Assembly: GCF_001310225.1 (NCBI RefSeq)
Contig: NZ_CP012898.1
Coordinates: 2,232,001-2,296,000 of the forward strand
From: Pseudalgibacter alginicilyticus
GTDB lineage: Bacteria > Bacteroidota > Bacteroidia > Flavobacteriales > Flavobacteriaceae
Reading direction: 5' to 3'
DNA: 64,000 nucleotides
Made by a program: the position numbers and the translations under genes. The notes beneath the pieces are model-generated. The model worked only from the letters and a program-made list of their open reading frames with translations, was not told the origin of the DNA and did no database searches. The first letter of the stretch is position 1. The number at the start of each line of letters is the position of its first letter. Shown here one piece after another: positions 9,163-44,012 of the stretch.

Positions 9163-9202
9163 AAAAAAACAGCTGTAAAAGAGATTTACAGCTGTTTTTT
9201 TT
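9163..9202. terminator. bidirectional terminator between the lipoprotein gene and gltD
   Basis: A long perfect stem built on ACAGCTGTAAA (9169-9179) and its complement (9185-9195), flanked by an A-run and a T-run. It is therefore functional in both directions between convergent genes. Confidence 0.85.
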
Positions 9203-39203: not shown

Positions 39204-39935
39204 TTATTTTCCAAAACTTAATTTATATTTTTTGGGTGTTATATCTAACATTGATTTAAAATCTTTGTTAAAATGACTCTGATCATAATAACCACAAGCA
39301 CAAGCGATGGATAGTAAATCTTTATCAGAATTTAGCAACATTTTACAAGCTAAATGTAAACGTACTTTTTTTAAATATGCCATAGGTGATATATGGAAAT
39401 CTTCTTTGAAATTTCTCAATAAAGACGTTTTCGACATAGATGTGATCTCGCATAATTCATCTAATGATATTTTTTTATCAATATTTTCTTCCATATAATT
39501 TAAAACACGCACTAATTTTTTATTTTTAAAAGCATACATCCCTGACTCTTTTAATTTTGATGTAATGCCTATTAAACCAATAACTTTCTGAGCATCGTTT
39601 AAAATTGGATACTTTGACGTTTTCAACCAATACGTTTTAAAATCTATAAAAGGAACCATCTCAACTTTATCCAATATTGTTTTTCCTTCATTCAACACTA
39701 AAATATCATCATTTATTATAGACTTAGTAATATGAGAAGGAAAAAAATCCGCATCGGTTTTTCCTAAAACTTTCAATTTATTATCAACACCATATATTGA
39801 TAACATAAAAGTGTTTAAACTTATGATTTTCCCGTCTATATCCTTTGCAAAAAAACCATTATTGGTTGATTCAAAAAATTCTTGAAGAGATTGAACCGAA
39901 CAAATAGGTGTATTTAATAAATTTACAGATTTCAT
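39204..39935 (-). CDS. PAS-domain AraC-family transcriptional regulator
   Basis: I use the ATG at 39935 (MKSVNLLNTPICSVQSL), giving 243 residues. A TTG nine codons earlier is possible. Residues about 20-120 form a PAS sensor domain (FFAKDIDGKIISLNTFML, GKTDADFFP). The C-terminal 100 residues are an AraC-type double helix-turn-helix (SLDELCEITSMSKTSLLRNF and LSIACACGYYDQSHFNKDFK). It is transcribed away from the ApbE-type gene, so it is the likely regulator of that operon. The signal bound by PAS is unknown. Confidence 0.88.
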   Translation of the reverse strand: MKSVNLLNTPICSVQSLQEFFESTNNGFFAKDIDGKIISLNTFMLSIYGVDNKLKVLGKTDADFFPSHITKSIINDDILVLNEGKTILDKVEMVPFIDFKTYWLKTSKYPILNDAQKVIGLIGITSKLKESGMYAFKNKKLVRVLNYMEENIDKKISLDELCEITSMSKTSLLRNFKEDFHISPMAYLKKVRLHLACKMLLNSDKDLLSIACACGYYDQSHFNKDFKSMLDITPKKYKLSFGK

Positions 39936-40028
39936 AAATGGATATATTATTCTTTTTAACAACAGTTAACTAATTAATATGTTGGTGCTTTATTTTGATA
40001 TTGGTTATATTTTACAAAAAAAAGATAA

Positions 40029-40057
40029 TTAATTAATATAAAAAATGTATTAATTAA
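40029..40057. promoter_or_regulatory. palindromic operator candidate between the AraC regulator and the ApbE operon
   Basis: A perfect 10-bp inverted repeat, TTAATTAATA (40029-40038) and TATTAATTAA (40048-40057), with a 9-bp spacer. It lies 2 bp before the -7 element of the operon. A similar TAATTAATAT occurs at 39971-39980. AT-rich sequence makes this only suggestive. Confidence 0.35.
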
Positions 40058-40059
40058 AA

Positions 40060-40067
40060 TATCTTTG
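40060..40067 (+). promoter_or_regulatory. -7 element of the ApbE operon
   Basis: TATCTTTG matches TAnnTTTG and is 26 bp before the ApbE ATG. No -33 TTTG is seen at the normal distance, which fits an activator-dependent promoter. Confidence 0.45.
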
Positions 40068-40093
40068 AAAGACTTAAAAAAGAAGCCCATCAA

Positions 40094-41098
40094 ATGTGTT
40101 TTTTTAATAGAAAATATCAAGTTGTTTTGTTACTTTTAATGTTAATTGTAAGTTACTCAGTTGATGCTAAATGTTACGTTTTTGACAAAAATAAGTTGGG
40201 TGGAAACTTTCAAATTATAGTATATTCAAGTTTAAGTGAAGATCGGGTAAACCAAGTGGTCAATAATGCTTATGTTTTGGTAGATTCATTAAATATTATT
40301 TTAAGTAATTACGATTCGTTTAGTGAAATTTCATTATTAAATTCGACTAAGAAATCAAAAGCACCTTCACATCATTTATTAAATGTTTTAAAAGCCTCAC
40401 AAGATGCTTATAAGTTAACTAATGGGTATTTTGATATTTCAATCCAACCATTAATGTTACTTTGGAGTGCTTCTGCTTCAAATGGAACAGTACCAAGTCA
40501 AAAAGAATTGGATAAGTTAAGTAAAAAAATAGGCTTATCGAAAGTATTAAAAATCAGAAATAATAATACAATTATTTTAAAACGAAAAGGTTCTTTGGAG
40601 TTGGGAGGTATCGCAAAAGGATATATTATTGATCAGGTGTATGCTTATTTAAAACAACATCAACTCACATCATTTTTAATAGAGGCAGCTGGAGATATTC
40701 GGGTTTATGGCAAACCAGAATATAAAGATAATTGGGTCGTTGGCCTTTCGTCCACAAATAAAACGCAGGAAATCGTTCAATTAAAATCTGGTGAGGCTAT
40801 TGCAACTTCAGGAAAAACTTATCGATTTTACACAATTGAAGGCATCAACTATTCACATATTCTTAATCCTAAAAGTTTAGGCCCAATTACGCATTCCAAT
40901 ACGACTTCGGTAATTTCAAATAATGCCACTACGGCAGATTATTTGGCATCCGCATTTAATATAATTACTAACAAACATGAAGTTAACGAAGTTTTAGAAA
41001 ATTACCCATTTACAGCGTTAATTCTGTTTAATGAAAAAGAAATAGTTTTTGCTTCCGAATTATTTTTAAACCAACAAAATATAAACAATGAAAAATAA
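40094..41098 (+). CDS. FAD:protein FMN transferase, ApbE type
   Basis: A 334-residue exported protein with an N-terminal hydrophobic signal (residues about 8-25). ApbE-family motifs are SNYDSFSEISLLN, TNGYFDISIQPL, GGIAKGYIIDQ and EAAGDIRVYGK. The C-terminal part has ATSGKTYRFY and HILNPKSLGP. Such enzymes attach FMN to a Thr/Ser of a target protein by a phosphoester bond, outside the cytoplasm. No protein in the operon shows a clear target motif (Ser/Thr-Gly-Ala-Thr/Ser). The next gene starts inside this one. Confidence 0.9.
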   Translation: MCFFNRKYQVVLLLLMLIVSYSVDAKCYVFDKNKLGGNFQIIVYSSLSEDRVNQVVNNAYVLVDSLNIILSNYDSFSEISLLNSTKKSKAPSHHLLNVLKASQDAYKLTNGYFDISIQPLMLLWSASASNGTVPSQKELDKLSKKIGLSKVLKIRNNNTIILKRKGSLELGGIAKGYIIDQVYAYLKQHQLTSFLIEAAGDIRVYGKPEYKDNWVVGLSSTNKTQEIVQLKSGEAIATSGKTYRFYTIEGINYSHILNPKSLGPITHSNTTSVISNNATTADYLASAFNIITNKHEVNEVLENYPFTALILFNEKEIVFASELFLNQQNINNEK

Positions 41099-41681
41099 AC
41101 TATTAATAGCATTAGTTTTCTTAATGGTAATTACTACCATGACACAAGCGCAACACAAATTAATTTTCCAAACAACATCCGAACTGAAAATAGACGGCAC
41201 ATCTACTGTAAGCGATTGGACCGTAAATGCTTCCGATATAAAAGGAGATTTAGTTTTACTAAAAGGTTTTAAGCCCAAAGAAGCTGGAAGTTTATATGCA
41301 ACATTAACATTAAGCTTTCCTGTTGAAAAAATGGAAAGTGGTCGTGGCCCAATTATGAATAATAAAATTAAATCCGCATTAAAAAGCGATGAACACCCAA
41401 ATGTGATTTATAATTCTTCTGAAAATAAAATAATTGCTATCAATGATTCATCTTTTATTCTAACATCCATAGGAATAGTTGAAGTTGCAGGTGTCAAAAA
41501 ACCTATGGAGGTAAATCTAAATTGTACTTACGATAAAAAACGGCAAACACTAGTTATGGAAGGGGAGCAAAACTTAACAATGTCTATGTTCCAAATTGAA
41601 AAACCAACGGCATTTTTTGGAAAATTACAAACTATGGACGCGCTAAAAGTGTCCTTTAAAATACATGCTAATAAAAAATAA
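41088..41681 (+). CDS. YceI family protein
   Basis: A 197-residue exported protein with signal MKNKLLIALVFLMVITTMTQA. The body has the YceI/lipocalin-like beta-barrel fold, marked by the N-terminal LKIDGTSTVSDWTVNASDIKG and a central KSALKSDEHPNVIYNS segment. YceI proteins bind isoprenoid or other amphiphilic molecules. The ligand here is unknown. It overlaps the ApbE gene by 11 bp and is followed by the FGE-like gene at 16 bp, so all are one operon. Confidence 0.88.
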   Translation: MKNKLLIALVFLMVITTMTQAQHKLIFQTTSELKIDGTSTVSDWTVNASDIKGDLVLLKGFKPKEAGSLYATLTLSFPVEKMESGRGPIMNNKIKSALKSDEHPNVIYNSSENKIIAINDSSFILTSIGIVEVAGVKKPMEVNLNCTYDKKRQTLVMEGEQNLTMSMFQIEKPTAFFGKLQTMDALKVSFKIHANKK

Positions 41682-41697
41682 AACATAAGCTTATCAT

Positions 41698-42657
41698 ATG
41701 AAATTACTAAACACAACTATTGTATTAGCTTGTCTTTTTTCTATAAAAGGGATGGCGCAAACTGAATTTAAACCCTATACACAAGCTATTGAAGGAACTG
41801 ATGTTACTTTCAGCATGGTACCTATTGAGGGAGGTACATATGTAGTTGGAGCTTCAGAAGGAGATATGAATAAAAACGACGATGAATTGCCAAATAAAAA
41901 GGTTGAAGTTTCTTCGTTTTGGATGGGAGCTTTTGAAGTTACACATAAAGAATTTTTATTATTTACCGATGCTACTCGAGATATTTTGGGAGATGGAAAC
42001 GTGAATCCAGAGGTTATTTCAAGGCCGTCAAGTCCATATGAAGATCCTTCAAAAGGCTTGGGAGGCGAAGATATGAAACCAACTGTTGGGTTGACTCAAT
42101 ATAGTGCGCTTTCGTATTGCAGATGGCTGTATAAAAGAACAGGAATTTTCTACCGAATTCCTACCGAATTAGAATGGGAATTTGCGGCAAGAGCAGGCAC
42201 AACTACACCTTATTTCTTTGGAAAAGATCCTGCTGAATTAGAAAAATATGCATGGTTTGATGCAAATGGTGAAGACCGTTTGCATGAAGTAGGTCAAAAA
42301 GAACCCAATCCAAATGGTTTATATGATATTTATGGAAATGTAGCTGAATGGTGTTTAGATCAGTATTATGCTGATTTTTATGCAACGTTAAAAGATGGCG
42401 AAAAAGATGCTTGGGGAATGCCAGACGCATTGAATCCTCGTTCTGTGCGCGGCGGGTCTTTTTTAGATGCCGCAAAAGATTGTAGAAGCTCAAGTAGAGT
42501 AACATCTACAGATGAATGGAAAGCAAGAGATCCGCAATTACCACAAAGCTTTTGGTGGAATACCGATTCGGAATTTGTTGGATTTCGATTAGTACGACCA
42601 CTCGTACAACCAAGTAAAGAAGAAATAGAATTATTCTTTTCTTCAATGTTAGAATAA
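41698..42657 (+). CDS. exported formylglycine-generating-enzyme-like protein lacking one catalytic cysteine
   Basis: A 319-residue protein with a signal peptide ending GMAQ and the FGE-sulfatase fold. Signatures are FWMGAFEVTHKEFLLF, YRIPTELEWEFAARAG and YGNVAEWCLDQYY. In true FGE the C-terminal segment is GGSYMCHRSYC, with two copper-binding cysteines. Here it reads GGSFLDAAKDC, so the first catalytic Cys is Asp and only the second remains. No sulfatase gene is nearby. It is probably not a formylglycine maker but a family member with another role. It lies 20 bp before the oxidoreductase gene. Confidence 0.85.
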   Translation: MKLLNTTIVLACLFSIKGMAQTEFKPYTQAIEGTDVTFSMVPIEGGTYVVGASEGDMNKNDDELPNKKVEVSSFWMGAFEVTHKEFLLFTDATRDILGDGNVNPEVISRPSSPYEDPSKGLGGEDMKPTVGLTQYSALSYCRWLYKRTGIFYRIPTELEWEFAARAGTTTPYFFGKDPAELEKYAWFDANGEDRLHEVGQKEPNPNGLYDIYGNVAEWCLDQYYADFYATLKDGEKDAWGMPDALNPRSVRGGSFLDAAKDCRSSSRVTSTDEWKARDPQLPQSFWWNTDSEFVGFRLVRPLVQPSKEEIELFFSSMLE

Positions 42658-42677
42658 ACAACATAAAATTAAATATA

Positions 42678-44012
42678 ATGGAAAGAAGAAATTTTATTAA
42701 AAATTCAGCGCTTGCTAGTGCTGGAATTTTGACTTCAACTGGAGCACTTGCAAGTAGTTTGGGGTTTAGTGGAAGTAAAGCAGGGAAATTAAAGTTAGCA
42801 CTAATTGGTTGTGGAGGAAGAGGTACTGGAGCAATAAATGCAGCGTTAAAAGGCCCTATTCCTTCAGAATTAGTGGCAATGGCAGATTTATTTAAAGATA
42901 AAATAGATTCGCAATTAAATGTACTTTTAAAAAATAATGGAGACAAAAAGAATATTAAAGTAACTGAAGAAACTAAATTTGTAGGCTTCCAAGGTTATAA
43001 AGAAGCAATTGCTTTAGCTGATGTTGTTTTTATTGGAACTCCTGCGGCATTTAAACCGGTTATTTTTGAAGAAGCTATTAGACAAGGAAAACACGTGTTT
43101 CTTGAAAAACCTGTGTGTGTTGACTCAATAGGGTTTCATAAAATACTAGAAGCTGCAGCTATTGCAAAACAAAAGAAACTATACGTTGCTGCTGGTTTAC
43201 AAAGAAGATATTCACCAGGATATCAAGCCATTATAAATGAAATCCATAGCGGTGCAATTGGAGATATTCACTCAGCAGAATGCTATTGGATGGGTGGCCC
43301 AATTGGAGATTTAACACGTCCTAGAAAAGAGAATTGGACAGAAATGGAATTTCAAAATAGACATTGGAGATCATTTGCTTGGGCAAGTGGTGGAAATATT
43401 ATTGAATTTCATATCCACAATTTAGATATTATAAATTGGGCACTAAATCAACAAAATCCAGTTTCTGTATTGTCAATGGGTGGAAAATCTCCAGACATGA
43501 ATTTTTCTGGTTCTTTAGGTGGATTTGATAGTATTGTTTCAAATTTTAAATATAAAAATGGCGTTTCAATGCATAGTTACAGTCGAAATATTCCTAATTG
43601 TAAAAATAAAAATGGAGAATATTTTTATGGAACTAAAGGAAAAGTTGTAATTGGTAGAGATGCAACTATTTATGATAATGATGGTAAAGAAATTTTTAAA
43701 GCAACTAGTAAAGATTATGGTAATTTCCACGGTATGTTTAATAAGGTTCAAGATCATTTAATGGATAGTATTTACAATAATAAAGAATATTTTAACGAAG
43801 CTGTATATGCTGCAGAAGCATCAATGACTGGCATTTTAGGAAGAATGTCTGCTTGGTCTGGAGATGAGTTAAGTTGGGAAGAAGGTACGCAATCGAAAGT
43901 TTCATTATTTGATTACACCAATGAAACAAGCTTAAATAGTGCCCCTCCAATTCTGATGGATCAATTTGGGAATTATCCAGTGCCAACACCAGGAAAAACA
44001 ATTGTAATGTAA
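42678..44012 (+). CDS. Tat-exported Gfo/Idh/MocA family oxidoreductase
   Basis: A 444-residue protein with a twin-arginine signal (ERRNFIKNSALASAGILTST). The NAD(P)-binding motif follows (LIGCGGRGTGAINAAL), then the EKP signature in FLEKPVCVDS. The second half is the beta-sheet substrate domain of Gfo/Idh/MocA enzymes (GGNIIEFHIHNLDIINWAL). The substrate is probably a sugar or inositol-like polyol. Tat export implies the cofactor is bound before export. It is the last gene of the four-gene operon and ends at a terminator. Confidence 0.9.
   Translation: MERRNFIKNSALASAGILTSTGALASSLGFSGSKAGKLKLALIGCGGRGTGAINAALKGPIPSELVAMADLFKDKIDSQLNVLLKNNGDKKNIKVTEETKFVGFQGYKEAIALADVVFIGTPAAFKPVIFEEAIRQGKHVFLEKPVCVDSIGFHKILEAAAIAKQKKLYVAAGLQRRYSPGYQAIINEIHSGAIGDIHSAECYWMGGPIGDLTRPRKENWTEMEFQNRHWRSFAWASGGNIIEFHIHNLDIINWALNQQNPVSVLSMGGKSPDMNFSGSLGGFDSIVSNFKYKNGVSMHSYSRNIPNCKNKNGEYFYGTKGKVVIGRDATIYDNDGKEIFKATSKDYGNFHGMFNKVQDHLMDSIYNNKEYFNEAVYAAEASMTGILGRMSAWSGDELSWEEGTQSKVSLFDYTNETSLNSAPPILMDQFGNYPVPTPGKTIVM

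Follow-up and report, generated by a model that had tools for sequence, protein, structure and literature searches.

A conserved ApbE–YceI–FGE-like–Gfo operon in Pseudalgibacter alginicilyticus and its possible role in flavin-dependent periplasmic carbohydrate oxidation

Introduction

A 64,000-nucleotide stretch of Pseudalgibacter alginicilyticus DNA (contig NZ_CP012898.1, positions 2,232,001–2,296,000, forward strand; hereafter the window) contains four closely packed genes for putatively exported proteins: an ApbE-type flavin transferase, a YceI lipocalin-like protein, a protein resembling formylglycine-generating enzyme (FGE-like), and a Gfo/Idh/MocA oxidoreductase (Gfo) with a twin-arginine translocation (Tat) type start. 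This operon raises the question of whether its four genes belong together and, if so, which protein receives the flavin that ApbE would attach. In known flavinylated extracytosolic redox clusters, exported redox proteins are encoded with a linked apbE, and orphan apbE genes led to the substrates DUF2271 and DUF3570 (PMC8238504, PMC11334425). The window operon resembles these clusters in combining exported proteins with a linked apbE but differs in its partners, which are an FGE-like protein and a Tat-type Gfo, together with YceI in the window form. Among the matches listed in our literature search, none joined ApbE with YceI, with formylglycine-generating enzyme/SUMF1 or with MocA; subscription papers and the supplementary tables of flavinylation surveys were mostly outside the coverage of this search.

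Results

The four genes form a conserved unit

Searching genome contigs with the window Gfo yielded 17 loci. All ten that encode a close Gfo (61–72% identity) keep ApbE, YceI, FGE and Gfo in the same order; they come from Lutibacter (three), Lacinutrix (two), Winogradskyella (two), Flavobacteriaceae GF1, Croceivirga and Fulvivirga, the last of which is placed outside Flavobacteriaceae. One of these copies, in Winogradskyella psychrotolerans (L036, 5416–6987), has ApbE and YceI broken into several frames, with FGE and Gfo intact. The seven loci with Gfo at 28–41% identity gave no ApbE, YceI or FGE match at E 1e-8. An orthologue of the divergent PAS-AraC regulator gene next to the window operon adjoins the operon in the three Lutibacter loci and was not found beside it in the other seven of the ten; in L040–L042, an open reading frame (ORF) of 832–833 aa occupies the place of the regulator gene.

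The four-gene grouping is therefore a genuinely conserved unit and not incidental, in agreement with the check set by the preliminary description of this DNA, which was made from the sequence alone and asked for co-conservation of the four genes. The combination of ApbE, FGE and Gfo also recurs in the phylum, as described below, accompanied by YceI in only part of it. The close four-gene form is rare: of 199 genomes of the family, 30 gave an FGE-like match with an E value of 1e-40 or below, and only that of the source genome exceeds 49% identity to the window protein. This rarity speaks for a grouping by chance, an explanation that is refuted by the synteny in ten of ten loci and opposed by the phylum-wide linkage and the tree of ApbE, leaving it a negligible probability.

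Some FGE-like relatives carry the ApbE motif in one loop

Formylglycine-generating enzymes carry a copper-binding pair of cysteines. In the window protein, RGGSFLDAAKDC, the first of these is absent and the second present, while a true FGE used as control (L080) has both. With its cysteine pair incomplete, the window protein is therefore no formylglycine enzyme, and a role as sulfatase activator was rejected for the same reason. The SUMF1 fold is kept, with an AlphaFold model at pLDDT 90.0 whose best match in the PDB is PvdO. The likeness to formylglycine-generating enzyme and PvdO thus lies in the fold, and the difference in the incomplete copper cysteine pair and in the presence of a loop of the DxxSRPS/SGAT type.

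The sequence Dxx[ST]GA[ST] is an ApbE flavinylation motif (PMC12052999). In this strict form it occurs in 12 of 79 FGE-like proteins, always in the same loop and alignment column. Elsewhere, a total of 495,031 aa from other ORFs contained seven matches; three of these are the FMN_bind, NQR2/RnfD and DUF2271 proteins of the source genome, which were fetched on purpose, three lie in one large protein family, and one is in a Gfo of genome G480. The consensus of the FGE-like loop, which is coil, is mostly Dxx[STA]x[PA][ST]xPY. The key Ser/Thr, the preceding Pro/Ala and a Tyr three residues further on are each present in 77 of 77 FGE-like rows, and the loop starts with Asp in 63 and with Glu in 11, the window copy being among the latter; this count omits one true FGE (L080 6436) and one duplicate (L064) that the 79-row count includes, and neither set contains the G372 FGE-like match (L148). 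Ser111 of the window protein aligns with the Thr of DxxSGAT in its relatives, and the window loop is predicted to be coil, with a mean pLDDT of 81 over residues 101–110 and 64 over residues 111–120.

A paralogue in the source genome (G000:C1:1812693-1813655; at 9194–10159 of L068, G000:C1:1803500-1823000) reads literally DGISGAT. Its locus is a second FGE–Gfo–isomerase cluster of this genome, alongside divergent DUF1080-cluster, isomerase, Gfo and MFS-like genes, and an 81-aa ORF just upstream has, by eye, the appearance of a DUF1080 remnant. Separately, a protein of about 1070 aa near Gfo–ApbE in three loci (L193 9855–13076, L195 7679–10900 and L198 780–3992) reads D[TA]VSGAT, which may be due to chance or mark a further ApbE target.

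Within the operon, Dxx[ST]GA[ST] is absent from all four proteins and the looser [ST]G[AS][ST] from Gfo and YceI, so that the earlier statement that the operon has no flavinylation motif is literally true. The suggestion drawn from it, that the ApbE target lies elsewhere, retains a basis in the FMN_bind, DUF2271 and NQR2/RnfD proteins of the genome but is not the best reading, given the DxxSGAT loop in the 12 FGE-like proteins.

ApbE is linked to FGE-like genes across the phylum

The window ApbE scored 201.5 bits against PF02424 (curated cut-off 25.6) and 81.7 bits against the narrower NF007774 equivalog, below its cut-off of 498, and it is predicted to be an FAD:protein FMN transferase. Its ATSG, YSHI and TAD stretches align with 6NXI, whereas 6NXJ differs at the His, and HIDP is replaced by HILNP. 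A Ser-His-Asp triad has been named for Vibrio cholerae ApbE (PMC12052999); the three stretches should hold its equivalents, although we infer the matching of letters to residue numbers.

We next sampled 296 genomes of the phylum (Bacteroidota, as judged from named relatives) using the source-genome paralogue (L068) as query, and 38 of them had an FGE-like protein at E up to 1e-40. With ApbE genes counted from a Pfam search and the G372 match included, 17 of the 35 such genomes from outside the family have ApbE within 10 kb of the FGE-like gene, whereas ApbE numbers and genome sizes lead to an expectation of 0.38, with at most 5 in 200,000 simulations. In G200, G314 and G400, the single ApbE gene is no more than 2 kb from an FGE-like gene in a cluster that also contains Gfo, and there is no FMN_bind, DUF2271 or NQR2 match genome-wide. 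In 20 further ApbE-centred loci, which are a chosen and not a random sample, Gfo adjoins ApbE in 13 (L185, L188, L190, L192–L200 and L202), L200 being the only one of these that also has FGE (FGE–Gfo–ApbE), and does not in seven (L183, L184, L186, L187, L189, L191 and L201). One of the seven, in G294 (L201), is of the DUF3570 type, and in another one ApbE of G361 (L189) adjoins PSCyt/DUF1501/cytochrome genes.

A quick tree built from 60 ApbE proteins has a branch (SH-aLRT 98) that separates off 31 rows, including the window ApbE: 24 of the 27 FGE-linked rows, three Gfo-adjacent and four other. Two other lineages also contain FGE-linked or Gfo-adjacent rows. The tree has no bootstrap and is rooted at its midpoint, so that the term clade is provisional. 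L064 (within L153) and L070 (its ApbE entered as L001) were left out, pieces shorter than 250 aa (L036, L135) were dropped and only the ApbE part of L137 was used; the label other stands on L168 and L181 despite an adjoining Gfo, and on L173 despite the FGE–Gfo–ApbE arrangement in L200. A mostly FGE-linked group of ApbE proteins thus exists in the phylum, in which the linkage of ApbE, FGE and Gfo is recurrent.

Related loci suggest a carbohydrate context for Gfo

Both the N- and C-terminal Pfam domains were matched in the window Gfo, and its EKP lysine and IHxxD stretch align with those of inositol dehydrogenase 4n54. The Bacteroides 3-keto-glycoside pathway (BT2157, a DUF1080 hydrolase, and BT2158, a dehydrogenase; PMC9007349, PMC11300592) offers a parallel as a system with a periplasmic glycoside dehydrogenase of the Gfo kind. 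BT2158, of which the window Gfo is a distant relative, is described as a glycoside 3-dehydrogenase of the periplasm that is required for the use of disaccharides (PMC11300592), and a 3-keto-glycoside hydrolase function is known or proposed for DUF1080 proteins (PMC9007349). A DUF1080 gene is found near the operon in five of the ten orthologous loci, directly upstream in L034–L037 and nearby in L040 (L034 and L040 Pfam-checked), whereas the window operon has none and, compared with the Bacteroides pathway, contains ApbE, FGE-like and YceI in addition. In L034–L037 (Lacinutrix, Winogradskyella), five to seven sulfatase-cluster ORFs surround the operon (one Pfam-checked).

One group of FGE-like relatives in the family consists of FGE–Gfo clusters, many of them followed by a TIM-barrel gene; in L072, L076 and L077, FGE–Gfo stands beside genes for GMC, gluconate-dehydrogenase subunit 3 and DUF1080. 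This neighbourhood recalls LacABC-type lactose 3-dehydrogenase, a GMC flavoprotein system, instead of which the window has an NAD-type Gfo with ApbE. In the LacABC-type system, membrane-bound sugar 3-oxidation is paired with DUF1080 hydrolases (PMC9007349). In G480, the sole ApbE adjoins a DUF1080 gene and a Tat-Gfo (L185 4701–5900, minus strand) with DGVSGAT and NVQTGAT, which is possibly flavinylated; an NQR2 match in this genome is partial (40 bits). Locus L193 (2860–8642) reads Gfo–ApbE–Gfo, followed by a 675-aa protein with 4Fe-4S and CCG domains and, by eye, N-terminal hydrophobic segments, with a YceI gene opposite.

Periplasmic oxidation had been put forward in the preliminary description, with a polyol- or isoprenoid-linked molecule as substrate. 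Oxidation in the periplasm remains our favoured activity, as set out in the Discussion, but such a substrate is unsupported; the related loci carry DUF1080, sulfatases and TIM-barrel isomerases, neighbours that point to glycosides.

The second gene encodes a YceI fold

The window YceI protein gave no PF04264 match even at E 0.1 and no match in a single-sequence PDB search. Its label is nevertheless right: 17 of the 21 sequences in its alignment match PF04264 (E up to 0.1), a profile search reaches YceI proteins of known structure at 1.3e-07, and Foldseek matches its AlphaFold model (pLDDT 83.7), which has the YceI fold, to BcnA (5e-09), YceI and TT1927b. Ubiquinone-8 has been reported as a bound ligand of YceI lipocalins (PMC9113575). 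The YceI/BcnA lipocalin with cytochrome b561 (PMC9113575) resembles the window protein in its fold and in the proposed role as a quinone redox partner, while no cytochrome b561 gene is among the four. A DGTST loop in YceI was set aside as a flavinylation site, being present in the YceI subfamily with or without a linked ApbE; its last Thr is Asn in three operon copies.

YceI-labelled genes also occur in L190, L193, L195, L196 and L198. Another group of FGE-like relatives in the family has FGE–YceI clusters with planctomycete-type cytochrome and DUF1501, with ApbE in two of them (L056, L064/L153). In L051, L053, L056, L059, L063 and L069, FGE–YceI is linked to PSCyt1/DUF1549/DUF1553 and DUF1501 clusters, and most of these loci have a further cytochrome gene (L056 copies Pfam-checked).

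Layout of the window locus

The features of the locus are listed in Table 1. The ORF coordinates agree with the earlier account of four genes overlapping or at most 20 bp apart: ApbE and YceI overlap by 11 bp, with gaps of 16 bp (YceI–FGE) and 20 bp (FGE–Gfo) thereafter. The ApbE, FGE-like and Gfo families and the divergent PAS-AraC regulator were likewise recovered by Pfam. Export signals on all four proteins, part of the same account, fit the N termini, which by eye are Sec-like in ApbE, YceI and the FGE-like protein and begin with a twin-arginine RRNFIK in Gfo. Two antisense ORFs, 42203–42505 within the FGE-like gene and 42506–42946 (minus strand) across the FGE/Gfo junction, were taken as spurious.

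Table 1 Features of the operon and its surroundings, in window coordinates.
Feature	Position	Strand	Basis
Divergent PAS-AraC family regulator gene	39204..39962	-	PAS_4 2.2e-09, HTH_18 5.8e-22 (Pfam); TTG start as listed
Divergent intergenic region, 131 bp, presumed operon promoter	39963..40093		Position only
ApbE-type, predicted FAD:protein FMN transferase, exported, 334 aa	40094..41098	+	PF02424 2.4e-59
YceI lipocalin-like protein, 197 aa	41088..41681	+	Pfam matches of alignment members, profile, Foldseek
FGE-like (SUMF1-fold) protein, 319 aa	41698..42657	+	PF03781 FGE-sulfatase 5.2e-39
Candidate FGE-like loop EVISRPSSPY, residues 105–114	42010..42039	+	Ser111 = 42028–42030
Tat-type Gfo/Idh/MocA oxidoreductase, 444 aa	42678..44012	+	GFO_IDH_MocA 5.6e-08; PF01408, PF22725 and PF02894 above cut-off

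Discussion

We propose that the operon specifies a redox module for carbohydrate oxidation in the periplasm, in which ApbE flavinylates the FGE-like partner and electrons pass to quinone, a tentative proposal to which we give somewhat less than an even chance. Gfo/Idh/MocA dehydrogenases hold NAD(P). With this cofactor tightly held, the Tat-exported Gfo would oxidise a carbohydrate, for which a glycoside of 3-keto-glycoside metabolism is the likeliest candidate; ApbE would attach FMN to a partner, most likely the FGE-like protein at Ser111 of its EVISRPS loop, by which electrons would leave the dehydrogenase; and YceI would bind an isoprenoid quinone, connecting the module to the respiratory chain. 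Sugar oxidation by Gfo, flavin transfer and the quinone link through YceI are proposed because of the role of BT2158 and the DUF1080 hydrolases. The 4Fe-4S/CCG protein in L193 and the YceI-labelled genes near Gfo–ApbE fit an electron route to the membrane. The partner of ApbE would possibly be of a kind not previously known as a flavin carrier. In favour of the proposal stand the ten conserved loci, the linkage of ApbE to FGE-like genes in the phylum, the single ApbE genes of G200, G314 and G400, the strict motif in FGE-like relatives, the mostly FGE-linked ApbE group, the G480 and L193 loci, the DUF1080 genes in five of the ten loci and the ubiquinone-8 of YceI lipocalins.

Several observations weigh against this proposal. 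The window loop lacks the canonical motif, with Glu for Asp and RP for GA. None of 19 A-type FGE-like proteins, the 12 with the strict motif included, has ApbE in the fetched stretch, compared with 28 of 58 P-type proteins, of which 11 are the window and the ten loci picked by Gfo, leaving 30 without. On one reading, proteins with the canonical motif are served by a housekeeping ApbE and those with the variant by a dedicated one; the contrast is confounded by lineage and sampling, since the family sample supplied 18 of the 19 A-type proteins, and the window and the loci picked by its Gfo account for 11 of the 28. A co-occurrence that favours the proposal also has its limits: among the 296 genomes, those with neither FMN_bind nor DUF2271 have ApbE in 22 of 22 cases with an FGE-like protein versus 67 of 170 without (Fisher 9e-9), in a test that ignores kinship and a genome-wide count that leaves out DUF3570; one of the 22, G437, has a DUF3570-type ApbE locus (L187). 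The 67 genomes still have ApbE while having none of the three proteins, 47 of them belonging to one family, and in G318, G457 and G474, which have an FGE-like protein, the sole ApbE has neither FGE nor Gfo nearby. Moreover, the window Gfo reaches 55.3 bits against the BT_2158 glycoside 3-dehydrogenase model (NF058561), far under its cut-off of 750, the phylum loci L114–L150 yielded no YceI, and G480 points to Gfo and not to FGE as the target of ApbE.

G480 accordingly suggests FMN on Gfo instead. That Gfo itself, or YceI, is the flavinylated protein, with the FGE-like protein merely a scaffold, is in our judgement unlikely, and we regard Gfo and YceI as less likely targets than the FGE-like protein. 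In addition to G480, 12 of the 13 chosen loci with an adjoining Gfo have no FGE beside ApbE, which favours Gfo, but [ST]G[AS][ST] is missing from the window Gfo and YceI, and elsewhere this looser motif is scattered over six Gfo-cluster proteins (in two of them within the Rossmann glycine loop) and found once in YceI, whereas the strict motif repeats at one column in FGE-like proteins. A lower probability attaches to the operon ApbE serving targets encoded elsewhere while merely being co-regulated with the other three genes; the source genome offers two FMN_bind proteins, one DUF2271 protein and two NQR2/RnfD proteins for such a role, yet its second ApbE, about 10 kb from one FMN_bind gene, falls in a different part of the ApbE tree, and ApbE is repeatedly linked to FGE–Gfo in genomes that gave no match to these families.

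Less probable again is that ApbE acts as an Ftp-like FAD pyrophosphatase, supplying free FMN as a dissociable cofactor of the module. Some Ftp/ApbE proteins hydrolyse FAD, although transfer of FMN to protein is likewise reported for both Ftp classes (PMC4767422); the ApbE group of the window varies at HIxP and LAS, but the window ApbE retains its Ser-His-Asp stretches. The sulfatase-cluster ORFs around the operon in L034–L037 would suit an FGE-like protein that matures the sulfatases of a sulfated-polysaccharide locus, with ApbE incidental. This is highly improbable, as aligned FGE-like rows have no cysteine at the first copper position, where the true FGE keeps both, and the window has no sulfatase-cluster ORF between 30001 and 54000.

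Beyond this operon, it is possible, if doubtful, that SUMF1-fold FGE-like proteins are a new class of ApbE-flavinylated electron carriers, marked by the widened motif Dxx[ST](GA/RP/LP)[ST]xPY and served by a dedicated ApbE subfamily, that link NAD-type Gfo sugar dehydrogenases of the periplasm with the respiratory chain throughout Bacteroidota. The accessible parts of the literature covered gave no answer to how exported Gfo/Idh/MocA proteins are re-oxidised outside the cytosol, to which a conserved ApbE partner would be a direct and testable answer. If true, SUMF1-fold carriers would explain electron disposal by the periplasmic 3-keto-glycoside pathway; a candidate fold would be added to the flavinylated proteins, and some apbE genes without a known target would gain a plausible role in glycan use.

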